Positions 20,797-24,619 of a stretch of 35,017 nt of DNA are shown one piece after another. The position numbers were made by a program, and so were the translations under genes. The notes beneath the pieces are model-generated. The model made no database searches and was not told the origin of the DNA. It worked only from the letters and a program-made list of their open reading frames with translations. The stretch is taken from assembly GCA_903940425.1 (NCBI GenBank), contig CAJAKX010000022.1:1-35017 (forward strand), in the 5' to 3' direction. The DNA comes from an uncultured Opitutia bacterium (GTDB lineage: Bacteria > Verrucomicrobiota > Verrucomicrobiia > Opitutales > Opitutaceae). Each line of letters starts with the position of its first letter. The stretch's first letter is position 1.

Positions 20797-21453
20797 ATGA
20801 CCCCGCCGCCGAAGGAAGTCAACGGCCTGTTAATGTTAATCGCCGGCCCCACCGGCACCGGCAAGACGACGCTGTGCCGGCGGCTGGTCGCCGCGCATCG
20901 GGAGGTCGAGCGCATCGTCACCTGTACCACGCGGGCCAAGCGCGAGGACGAACAGCACGGCGTCGATTATTATTTCTTGAGCAACGCCGAATTCGATGAG
21001 GCGCTGGCCAATGATGAATTCCTTGAATGGGCGCAGGTGCACACCTCGCGCTATGGCACGAAGAAAAGCGCCGTCTTCAACAAACTCGACCGTAATGTCG
21101 ACCTCGTGGTCAATGTCGACGTGCAGGGGGCGCGCGCCTACCGCCAGGCCTTTGAGGGCCACTCGACCATGCGCGGCCGGCTCGTGGCGGTTTTCATCAT
21201 GCCGCCGGACATGGAGACCATTTATGACCGCCTGCTCACGCGCGGGCAGGACTCGAAGGAGCAAATCGAGCGGCGCATGAGGACCGCGCTTTATGAAGTG
21301 GAGCAATGGACGCAGCAGGACTATTGCATCGTGACCGGCACAAAGGAGGAGGATTATATCCGGCTCGAGAGCATCTGGCGGGCGGAGAAATGCCGCGTCT
21401 CCCGGTTGCGTCTGGCGGTGGCCACAGCCGACTCGCGCCTGCCCTTTCAATAG
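20797..21453 (+). CDS. gmk: Guanylate kinase
   Basis: Phosphorylates GMP to GDP with ATP. The 218-residue protein has the P-loop GPTGTGKT (17-24; most relatives have GPSGSGKS), the GMP-binding block CTTRAKREDEQHGVDYYFL, FLEWAQVH, RYGTKK, NVDVQGARAYR and a C-terminal lid with RLLTRGQDSKEQIERRM. The usual TTRxPRxGE sequence is altered to TTRAKREDE here, an unusual but conservative variation around the GMP site. The start is the ATG at 20797, 11 bp after the membrane protein gene; no Shine-Dalgarno. It converges with the Fic gene. Confidence 0.93.
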   Translation: MTPPPKEVNGLLMLIAGPTGTGKTTLCRRLVAAHREVERIVTCTTRAKREDEQHGVDYYFLSNAEFDEALANDEFLEWAQVHTSRYGTKKSAVFNKLDRNVDLVVNVDVQGARAYRQAFEGHSTMRGRLVAVFIMPPDMETIYDRLLTRGQDSKEQIERRMRTALYEVEQWTQQDYCIVTGTKEEDYIRLESIWRAEKCRVSRLRLAVATADSRLPFQ

Positions 21454-21516: not shown

Positions 21517-22863
21517 CTAGAGCAGGGCGGTCGGCAGCTCGTCGCCTTGGGCCGGCGGTTTGGTGCGGCGGCGCCCGGCGGTGGACTGAAGCCTCCGGGT
21601 CAGGTCAGCAGGGACCTGGAAAATGTAGCGGCGCCCCTCCTTGCCCACCGCCAGGAGTTCGCGCCGGCTCAGATCGAAAAGATCGTCACGCGCCGTTTGA
21701 TGGGTGACGCCCTGGCTCCGCTGGTGGCCGGCAACCACATACCGCGTGTCGGGTTTGCGAAGCGCGTGCGCGATCAGGGCCTGCTGGCGCGGGTTGAGCT
21801 CCGCAAAACCCCGCAGCTTCTCTTTCGCCTCCCGCACTTCGTCTGTTTTTCGCACGGCCCGACCGTGCAGGGCCTCCACAGCCGCGTGGATGACCGTTGC
21901 CTGATGAAGGATGAAATACGTGAGGTCATTGTCGTCGGTCTCCGTCTGCAGAAAGGCTCGCGCGTAGTCCGCCGGTGCCTGCAGCAGAACGGGGGAGATT
22001 GAGAGGAGCTCAAAGAGCGGATAAGCTTGGCGCAGCATCGCCCAGCGAAACAGGGCGCGCGCGGTGCGTCCGTTGCCGTCGAGAAACGGACGATCATGGG
22101 CCAGCCAGAAGTGCAGGATGACCGCCCGGATGACCGGATGGATGAAAAATTCCGGCGTCCGGCCATTGGCAAAGGCGCACATCTGTTCCATGCGCCGCGG
22201 CAATTCGCCGGCCGGAGGCGGCTCGTGTTGCACCGCCCCCGCGGGGTCGGCCAGCAGCGATTCTTCCCCGTTGCGCCGGAGACGTCCGGCCGCGCCTGGT
22301 TCATCCAGTGTTCCCTCCGTGATGCACCGATGCAGTTCCAAGACAATTTTTGGACTGAGTTCGCGGTCCTGCAACCCGCGGACCCGCTCCAGCGTCAGCT
22401 GCAGGTTAACTATCATCTGTTCGCTTCTTTCACCCGGCGGCCGGCCGGTGCGCAGCATTTCCTTCGCCACTGCATAATGCGTCGTGGCTCCGGCCAGCCG
22501 GGCAGACGCGATGGCCTCCTCGAAAAGCATGCTGGCGATGAACCGGCTTAAATCCTCGGGCCCGATGTCCATTTCGTTCCGGCCATGATCCAGATGATGC
22601 AGAAGTTCAACCAGTACATCCGGTATGTTAAAATTAAACGGCTGTTTCCGGCGGTTGCTAAAGGGGATGAAGTGGAGTCGTGAAGAACGCGCCAGTTTCA
22701 AGGCGGCCCACCAGACTTCATGACTGATTCCCCCTGGTTGTGGTTGCTTCTTCAACTCATCCCAATGCAAATAGCACTCTCCGGGCACTAATTTTTCATA
22801 CGCCTCCAGTACCAGAGCCCATTGTTGGGGAATAATATCGGTAATTGTAGGAGGGAGCTTCAT
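21517..22863 (-). CDS. Fic-domain protein with altered catalytic and inhibitory motifs
   Basis: A 448-residue Fic (filamentation induced by cAMP) protein; active members transfer AMP or other nucleotides to protein hydroxyls. The layout is an N-terminal Fic-associated region, the inhibitory-helix segment EEAIASARLAG (about 116-125), Fic core helices, the loop HDRPFLDGNGRTAR (256-269), then a C-terminal winged-helix-like part (LNPRQQALIAHAL... TARDDLFDLSRRELL) probably for DNA or protein binding. In the usual HPFxDGNGRxxR motif the essential His is Arg258 here (codon CGT), with a His two residues before it. The inhibitory motif S/TxxxE G/N has Ala124 in place of Glu. The frame is intact, so this is not simple decay. 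No antitoxin gene is adjacent. The upstream region is strongly AT-rich, unlike its surroundings, which suggests acquisition. Confidence 0.88.
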   Translation of the reverse strand: MKLPPTITDIIPQQWALVLEAYEKLVPGECYLHWDELKKQPQPGGISHEVWWAALKLARSSRLHFIPFSNRRKQPFNFNIPDVLVELLHHLDHGRNEMDIGPEDLSRFIASMLFEEAIASARLAGATTHYAVAKEMLRTGRPPGERSEQMIVNLQLTLERVRGLQDRELSPKIVLELHRCITEGTLDEPGAAGRLRRNGEESLLADPAGAVQHEPPPAGELPRRMEQMCAFANGRTPEFFIHPVIRAVILHFWLAHDRPFLDGNGRTARALFRWAMLRQAYPLFELLSISPVLLQAPADYARAFLQTETDDNDLTYFILHQATVIHAAVEALHGRAVRKTDEVREAKEKLRGFAELNPRQQALIAHALRKPDTRYVVAGHQRSQGVTHQTARDDLFDLSRRELLAVGKEGRRYIFQVPADLTRRLQSTAGRRRTKPPAQGDELPTALL

Positions 22864-22876
22864 TTCATGGGTTTTT

Positions 22877-22926
22877 ATCCTATTTATTTAATTATTAGGA
22901 TATCGCTAATATATGTAATCCTATTT
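22877..22926 (-). promoter_or_regulatory. AT-rich palindromic operator candidate before the Fic gene
   Basis: A 25-bp inverted repeat at 22877-22901 (ATCCTA...TAGGAT, 10 of 12 arm positions paired) lies 13 bp upstream of the Fic start codon. A second ATCCTATTT copy is at 22918-22926, 41 bp from the first. Promoter-like AT-rich hexamers overlap the palindrome on the reverse strand, so a bound protein would block transcription. The rest of the 22864-23016 gap is AT-rich with no gene. Confidence 0.4.
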
Positions 22927-23016
22927 TCTATTGCTTTTGGATCAAACTAGCAAAAGCAAGTTCATGGTCAAACAAATCGCTCAGCGTTCCGGATCTGGCT
23001 GGGCCGGCTGTTTTAA

Positions 23017-24525
23017 TCAGGCCTGGATCTGTGGTCGCGCGGGTTCCGGCCAGTCCAAATGGAAGAACTTGCCACGGGGTTGATCAACCCGCTCGTAGGT
23101 GTGGGCGCCAAAATAATCGCGCTGCGCCTGCAGCAGATTGGCCGGCAGGCGGGCGGTACGATAGCCGTCGTAGTAGGCAAGAGCTGAACCGAAGGTCGGT
23201 GCCGCCACTCCGTGTTGGGCGGCCAAAGCCACGACCTTCCGCCAGTTTTCCTGCGCCTCCTTCACTGTTTTATTGAAGTAAGGGTCGAGGAGCAGGTTTG
23301 CCAGGCGGGGATTGCGGCCGTAGGCCTCGGTAATTTTCTGCAAAAAGCCGGCACGAATGATGCAACCACCCCGCCAGATCTGGGCGATGGCGCCGAAATT
23401 CAACGTCCAATTATATTCCTTCTGGGCCTCGCGCATGAGTTGGAAACCCTGTGCGTAGGAGCAAATCTTCGAGCAATAAAGGGCATCATGGATGGCCTGG
23501 ATCAGTGCCGTCCGGGCGCCGCGGTATGACTTCTTGGCGGGACCCTTGAGTATCTTGGCCGCCGCGACCCGTTCCTCCTTGATGGCAGACAGGCAGCGGG
23601 CGAAAACCGCCTCGGCGACCGTGGGGGCGGGCACGCCCATGTCGAGGGCGTTGACGCTGGTCCATTTACCGGTGCCCTTCTGGCCGGCGGTGTCGAGGAT
23701 GACGTCGACCAGCGCCTTGGATTTTGTGACAGGATCTTTCTGCTGAAGAATGTCGGTGGTTATCTCGATGAGATAGGAATCGAGCGCTCCTTTATTCCAT
23801 TCGGCGAAGACGGCCCCAATCTCTTCCGCCTTCAAGCCGAGCAGACTCCGGATGAGATAGTACGCTTCGCAGATCATCTGCATATCCCCGTACTCAATAC
23901 CGTTATGAATCATCTTTACGTAGTGGCCGGCGCCGTCGGGGCCGATGTAAGTGGCACAAGGCACTCCTCCGGAAACGGGTTTGCCGGGCGTGGCACCGAG
24001 GATGGGGCGGCCGGTCTTGGCGTCGACCTTGGCGGCAATGGCATTCCAAATCGGCTCCAATTCCTTGTAGGCGGCTGGGTCTCCCCCGGGCATGAGCGCG
24101 GGTCCGAAACGCGCCCCGGTTTCCCCTCCGGAAACGCCGGAGCCGATGAAGCGGAGCCCTTTTTCGCGGAGCGCCTTTTCGCGGCGAATGGTGTCGGTCC
24201 ATTTGGCGTTACCGCCATCGATGATAATGTCCCCCTGCTCAAGGAGCGGAATGAGCCCATCGATGACGGCATCGGTGGGTCCCCCCGCCTGGACAAGAAG
24301 GATGATCCGGCGCGGCCTAGTGAGGGACCGGACTAATTCCTGAAGGGTCGTGGCGCCGACAAGGCCACCCGGGGTGGCGGGGTTTCCCGCCAGGAACTTG
24401 GCCATTTTCTCGGTTGTTCGATTGTAAACCGAGACCTGAAAGCCGTGGTCGGCAATGTTGAGCGCCAGATTTTGCCCCATCACCGCAAGGCCGATGAGTC
24501 CGATGTCTGAATGGGATTTTGGCAT
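23017..24525 (-). CDS. gnd: 6-phosphogluconate dehydrogenase, decarboxylating
   Basis: Oxidises 6-phosphogluconate to ribulose 5-phosphate with NADP in the pentose phosphate pathway. The 502-residue protein has the N-terminal dinucleotide fold ([16 protein letters not shown]), [22 protein letters not shown], and the catalytic [17 protein letters not shown] with Lys204 and Glu211. The C-terminal domain holds KGTGKWTS and ends with [11 protein letters not shown]. It is longer than E. coli Gnd (468), partly through an insertion at about 168-189 ([16 protein letters not shown]) and a short C-terminal extension. An upstream TTG at 24555 would add 10 residues; ATG at 24523-24525 is preferred. The 94-bp gap upstream holds no other feature I can see. 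Confidence 0.95.
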
Positions 24526-24619
24526 GCGCAAAAAATTGATCCGATTTTCCGGCAAAGACCAATCATTTTCCCCGCGTCGCTGGCATCACTCAACCCAAAC
24601 TAGTCCCGCATACCGCCGC

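Follow-up and report, generated by a model that had tools for sequence, protein, structure and literature searches.

A clade of Fic/winged-helix proteins without the catalytic histidine and the inhibitory glutamate, probably retained for autoregulatory DNA binding

Why would a bacterium keep a Fic protein that has neither the catalytic His nor the inhibitory Glu? The window (the 35,017-nucleotide stretch of DNA analysed here) carries such a gene, flanked by two genes that we take, by sequence recognition, to be gnd (6-phosphogluconate dehydrogenase-like, upstream) and gmk (guanylate kinase-like, convergent downstream). The gene is read on the minus strand from 22863 to 21517, and the ORF listing gives 448 codons from ATG to stop without interruption. 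Residues 169–274 match the Pfam Fic family PF02661 at 60.7 bits (cut-off 24) and the top structural matches are all Fic proteins, placing the protein in the Fic/Doc (Fido) fold. Against the NCBIfam SoFic equivalog NF046030 it scores 31.2 bits, below the curated cut-off of 550. The PADLOC SoFic anti-phage model matches the 448-aa protein with an E value of 4e-34, a lead that the canonical relatives (those with intact motifs) may be defence proteins. Judged by its closest named match, a fen Opitutia MAG, the source genome (G000) is probably a Verrucomicrobiota MAG of the Opitutia type; its stated completeness is 96% and its contamination 5.65%.

The translated active loop reads H256-D-R258-P-F-L-D262-G-N-G-R266-T-A-R269. 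In an alignment with relatives, Arg258 occupies the column of the catalytic His and Ala124 that of the inhibitory Glu, where canonical relatives have YDHPFxDGNGRTAR and SSQLEG. Compared with the HPFx(D/E)GNGRxxR motif of Fic AMP transferases, Arg258 stands for His and the rest is complete; in the class II inhibitory helix, (S/T)xxxE(G/N), Glu is replaced by Ala124, with the helix itself present in the structure model. His fills the first column in 98% of the canonical relatives and Glu the second in all 49 compared, the five degenerate lineages having Arg or Gln and, in every case, Ala. Gly263, Asn264, Gly265, Arg266, Ala268, and Arg269, which form the GNGRxxR phosphate loop, are invariant in the degenerate lineages. 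An earlier note on this DNA had called Arg258, Ala124, an intact DGNGRxxR, and an intact frame, and the ORF and the alignment bear out every one of these calls. His256 is not a displaced catalytic His because column 256 is Tyr in canonical relatives, and the suggestion that it might stand in as the base is weakened by one relative (L039) that pairs Tyr256 with Arg258. A separate protein outside the degenerate clade (L022, 1501–2718, in G023) has the loop YDQPFVNGNGR, with His changed to Gln and Asp to Asn, and keeps the inhibitory Glu.

Table 1. Coordinates of the degenerate fic gene, its motifs, its predicted operators, and its neighbours
Feature	Position	Strand	Remarks
Degenerate Fic-winged helix protein	21517..22863	-	448 aa; ORF, Pfam Fic match, dN/dS 0.19 vs ortholog
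Active loop HDRPFLDGNGRTAR, residues 256-269	22057..22098	-	Arg258 codon 22090-22092
Inhibitory-helix motif S120-ARL-A124-G	22489..22506	-	Ala124 codon 22492-22494
C-terminal winged helix, about residues 346-425	21589..21828	-	AF2 helices and wing; 44/45 cells kept; Fic-HTH structure matches
Recognition helix, residues 388-400		-	His388 codon 21700-21702; AF2 model
Proximal predicted operator ATCCTAAT-N9-A(A)TAGGAT	22877..22901	.	1 mismatch
Distal predicted operator	22918..22942	.	3 mismatches; 41 bp from proximal copy
Upstream neighbour (presumably gnd)	23017..24555	-	Conserved synteny
Convergent downstream neighbour (presumably gmk)	20797..21453	+	Conserved synteny

Searches at genus, family, class, and phylum level gave about 65 relatives, nearly all of which have YDHPFxDGNGRTAR together with SSQLEG. 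The exceptions include a second species of the same genus, a fen Opitutia MAG (G387), whose protein is 93% identical, carries both substitutions, and lies at the same gnd/gmk position. Four relatives from the same bacterial family, more divergent than this one, also lack both residues, with Glu changed to Ala and His to Arg, or to Gln in one: SAALAG and HARPF in G389, SARLAG and YDRPF in G391, SAQLAG and HDRPF in G515, and SSQLAG and HEQPF in G452. In a tree calculated without the motif columns, the six degenerate members form one branch (support 97/97) nested inside the canonical HPF/Glu proteins of the family; the branches in this clade are long and long-branch effects are possible. Every one of the six clade members has both changes and no other row combines them, L022 belonging to another clade and lacking the His only. 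A double change shared so completely by one clade is more than chance, and both substitutions go back to the common ancestor of this clade, a paralogous one within the bacterial family. The earlier note had proposed to check whether Arg258 and Ala124 are conserved together in close homologues: the sister species carries both, and the clade as a whole has lost base and brake together across its five lineages, which supports the claim that AMP transfer has been abandoned or changed. The same changes in a second species and in the clade exclude recent decay confined to one copy, as well as a sequencing error.

The clade occurs in soil and fen bacteria. Profile and pattern searches of 384 class genomes, an even but not exhaustive draw, found no degenerate member beyond the family, scans of viral contigs found none there, and all relatives in plasmid and phage collections were below 60% identity. 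IMG/VR viral contigs do carry canonical members of the Fic-HTH family (L094–L106); among the viral-contig rows, the loop of L105 reads DNGR and that of L096 DHYF.

No partner gene adjoins the degenerate fic, whose flanks are gnd and gmk alone. This gnd-fic-gmk locus is common to four of the six degenerate members, the copy in G391 being divided between two contig ends; in G515 the distance from the gene to gnd is 3 kb. Two of six congeners have no degenerate fic: gnd and gmk are separated by a gap of 169 bp in G390 and by an interval of 1.9 kb in G388, neither of which contains the gene. The shared locus, together with these two absences, indicates that the gene is accessory but old. Some local irregularities were also seen. 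A sigma-factor-like gene and more reading frames lie between fic and gnd in G515 (L067, 7886–10728), none of which is found there in the window's genus, and G388 has two different gmk-like genes (L136 and L137), one of them in the gnd-gmk locus, reflecting a second copy or contamination. The two G391 contigs (C112 and C43; L065 1–196 and the start of L066) share a 196-bp overlap within the degenerate fic, where they differ by 11 bp, and one of the two contig-end versions is frameshifted, by strain variation or misassembly.

The gene is under purifying selection, which is strongest in the C-terminal winged helix. Compared with the 93% identical ortholog, the whole gene has a dN/dS of 0.19 (32 nonsynonymous and 52 synonymous changes), the values for the N-terminal part, the Fic part, and the linker with winged helix being 0.17, 0.29, and 0.08; the neighbouring genes range from 0 to 0.21. 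A binomial test, which ignores mutation bias, gave p values of 3e-12 when applied to the whole gene and 3e-4 when restricted to the Fic part. We also scored the five degenerate lineages at the 90 positions where conservation among 49 canonical relatives reaches 95% or more. The winged helix retains 44 of 45 cells (98%), the Fic part 78%, the N-terminal part 70%, and the inhibitory-helix region 64%. The residues lost in all five lineages lie on the active-site side, namely Glu124, Thr129, Arg130, Asn154, Met158 (to Leu), and His258; the flap residues His213 and Tyr273 are gone in four lineages, and the Mg-binding Asp262 in two. This pattern indicates that the phosphate-binding loop and the DNA-binding domain were kept, and that the base, the brake, and the flap were not.

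The AF2 model (pLDDT 83.7, pTM 0.76, from an alignment of 16 sequences) shows a Fic core followed by a long linker helix and then the winged helix. Fic-HTH proteins, namely SoFic, Dde_2494, CbFic2, and a Mycobacterium marinum Fic, are among the nearest solved structures, and the model and full-length alignments to 3zcn, 3eqx, and 4rgl assign the protein to the SoFic-like class, in which a winged helix follows the Fic core. Directly upstream of every degenerate gene we found a predicted 25-bp palindrome, ATCCTAAT-N9-ATTAGGAT, usually in two copies 41–47 bp apart; the two-copy arrangement is also present in G391, G452, G464, G207, and G514. The window thus has two predicted sites of a CccR-like inverted-repeat operator in the gene's own promoter. 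In all six degenerate promoters, the best match beats 500 of 500 dinucleotide shuffles. When 11 genomes were scanned, each of the 11 sites that had no more than one mismatch lay just upstream of a fic gene, and in G000 and G387 the two promoter copies are the genome's only matches at up to three mismatches; a backwards-pattern control gave 0–6 matches per genome. The G000 genome therefore contains no further operator that would point to a regulon at this threshold. The sister species has the same proximal site and a single base difference across the 66-bp operator stretch. A scan for sigma-70-like promoters returned one weak site overlapping both operators, no better than in shuffled sequence. 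A dyad search without the N9 geometry overlooked some sites and caught other repeats, and it was replaced by the geometry-based search. Beside the distal operator, at 22931–22959, lies a perfect 9-bp inverted repeat, TTGCTTTTG-N11-CAAAAGCAA, which has one mismatch in the sister species and may be a terminator of gnd or an additional site. Neither the winged helix nor the operator appears in the earlier note.

The operator geometry also precedes canonical relatives, with different half-sites. Scoring the family for the core CTAAT-N9-ATTAG, we found that the two bases before CTAAT follow residue 388 at the start of the predicted recognition helix: TC with His (9/9), TT with Phe (5/5), TA with Tyr (20/24), and GG with Arg (4/4), with single cases of TG for Leu and for Thr. 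The mutual information between residue and half-site is 1.69 bits over 46 loci, a value reached in none of 5000 permutations. The tree implies roughly 10 changes of residue 388 and roughly 9 of the half-site. No phylogenetically independent pair goes against the rule, and with relatedness removed such pairs are too few for significance. The rule holds in active and degenerate members alike. The degenerate clade obeys it with a shift of its own, L063 combining Phe388 with TTCTAAT, so protein and operator seem, from these sequence correlations, to have kept co-evolving after the loss of catalysis. Since the predicted operator is family-wide, DNA binding would have been retained rather than newly gained.

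Taken as a whole, the evidence makes it probable, on sequence grounds, that this is a catalytically dead SoFic-like class II Fic/winged-helix protein retained as an autoregulatory DNA-binding protein. Base and brake would have been lost in the ancestor of the degenerate clade, and with them, we infer, AMP transfer. The catalytic His likely went first and the inhibitory Glu second, because in one described case an active enzyme is toxic when its brake is removed (PMC5651007). The unrelated L022, in which His is changed to Gln and Glu is still present, fits this order. The winged helix still fits the two tandem 25-bp palindromes, and one dimer per palindrome may repress the gene's own transcription. 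The Fic fold would persist as a scaffold; its GNGRxxR loop is intact and probably still able to bind a nucleotide or another phosphate ligand, which could tune DNA binding. Of the alternatives that the earlier note had offered, retained DNA binding is thus the best supported, by the conserved winged helix and the dedicated operator, and phosphate or phosphocholine transfer finds no support. With no second operator in the genome, self-repression alone has no output, and an output beyond autoregulation is still owed. It most likely sits in the Fic fold, as ligand or partner binding. As the benefit of the protein is unexplained, some weight is left with altered chemistry, with a decoy or antitoxin role, and with slow decay.

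Altered chemistry, with transfer or cleavage of a phosphoryl-linked group still carried out by the Fic fold, is unlikely. Arg258 (or Gln) would stabilise the phosphate, another residue or none would act as the base, and the brake would be dispensable because the new reaction is harmless. The conserved anion-binding GNGRxxR loop and fold and the selection on the Fic part (dN/dS 0.29) agree with such a reaction, and a case has been made for residual activity in His-less relatives (PMC4454073); however, the replacing residue varies between Arg and Gln, Asp262 is gone in two of the five lineages, and flap residues His213 and Tyr273 are gone in four. We consider it slightly less likely still that the dead Fic serves as a decoy or antitoxin, binding the targets of an active Fic or dimerising with it and so neutralising it. 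In Campylobacter fetus one Fic protein is known to neutralise another (PMC5651007), and a canonical paralogue accompanies the degenerate gene in G387, G391, and G452, but the searches found none that is close in G000, G389, or G515, the trans-acting inhibitory Glu of the known case is itself lost here, and the target-binding flap is not conserved. Just as doubtful is a domesticated repressor, by which the inactive clade, still able to recognise the operator, would bind the promoters of, and silence, incoming or paralogous active Fic genes that have the His388-type TCCTAAT operator (seen in G514, G464, and G207), while its Fic pocket responded to a nucleotide signal. Slow decay of a former enzyme, with the autoregulatory part eroding last, would account for the longer degenerate branches, the loss of 14–33% of canonical-conserved sites, the absence from two congeners, and the frameshift in one of the two overlapping G391 contig ends, but it is very unlikely given the dN/dS of 0.19, the open frames of all five lineages (one of them divided between contigs), and the constraint in the N-terminal and Fic parts too.

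Fic domains without the catalytic His are not a new category. They make up about a quarter of Bartonella BepFICs (PMC8401265) and include Doc clade D2 (PMC4454073), which likewise keep Fic folds; according to the available parts of these sources, those proteins are secreted effectors or single-domain Doc proteins, unlike the present clade with its winged helix and predicted operator, and no paired loss with a class II brake is described for them there. Searches of the open literature, with incomplete coverage, returned no report of a clade that lacks base and brake yet has a winged helix and an operator, nor of the rule linking residue 388 to the operator. His-less Fic proteins are usually treated as oddities, and this clade is a clean candidate for a transition from enzyme to regulator. 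With the predicted operator and the one-residue rule, DNA sites of SoFic-like Fic-HTH proteins, and hence autoregulation, become predictable from sequence, making the whole family testable. SoFic (Shewanella SO_4266; 3eqx, 3zcn) has the same arrangement of a Fic core with a winged helix at the C terminus (VIA-align, Z 27 across about 335 residues), but the 448-aa protein is only about 16–18% identical and lacks its catalytic His and inhibitory Glu. CccR of Yersinia pseudotuberculosis is a FIC-HTH autorepressor that binds inverted repeats in its own promoter (PMC9755527), as we predict here; in contrast, it is an active secreted AMP transferase with a SARIEG brake and His192, and its repeats are 10 bp with a 26-bp spacer, whereas those of the degenerate fic are 8 bp with 9 bp, present twice. 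CbFic2 of Coxiella burnetii, a class II Fic with a C-terminal HTH and a similar fold (8cil), differs in being active with its HPF motif and TSAIEG brake intact, and its Fic core activity is altered by DNA binding, a precedent for coupling between HTH and core (PMC10628234).
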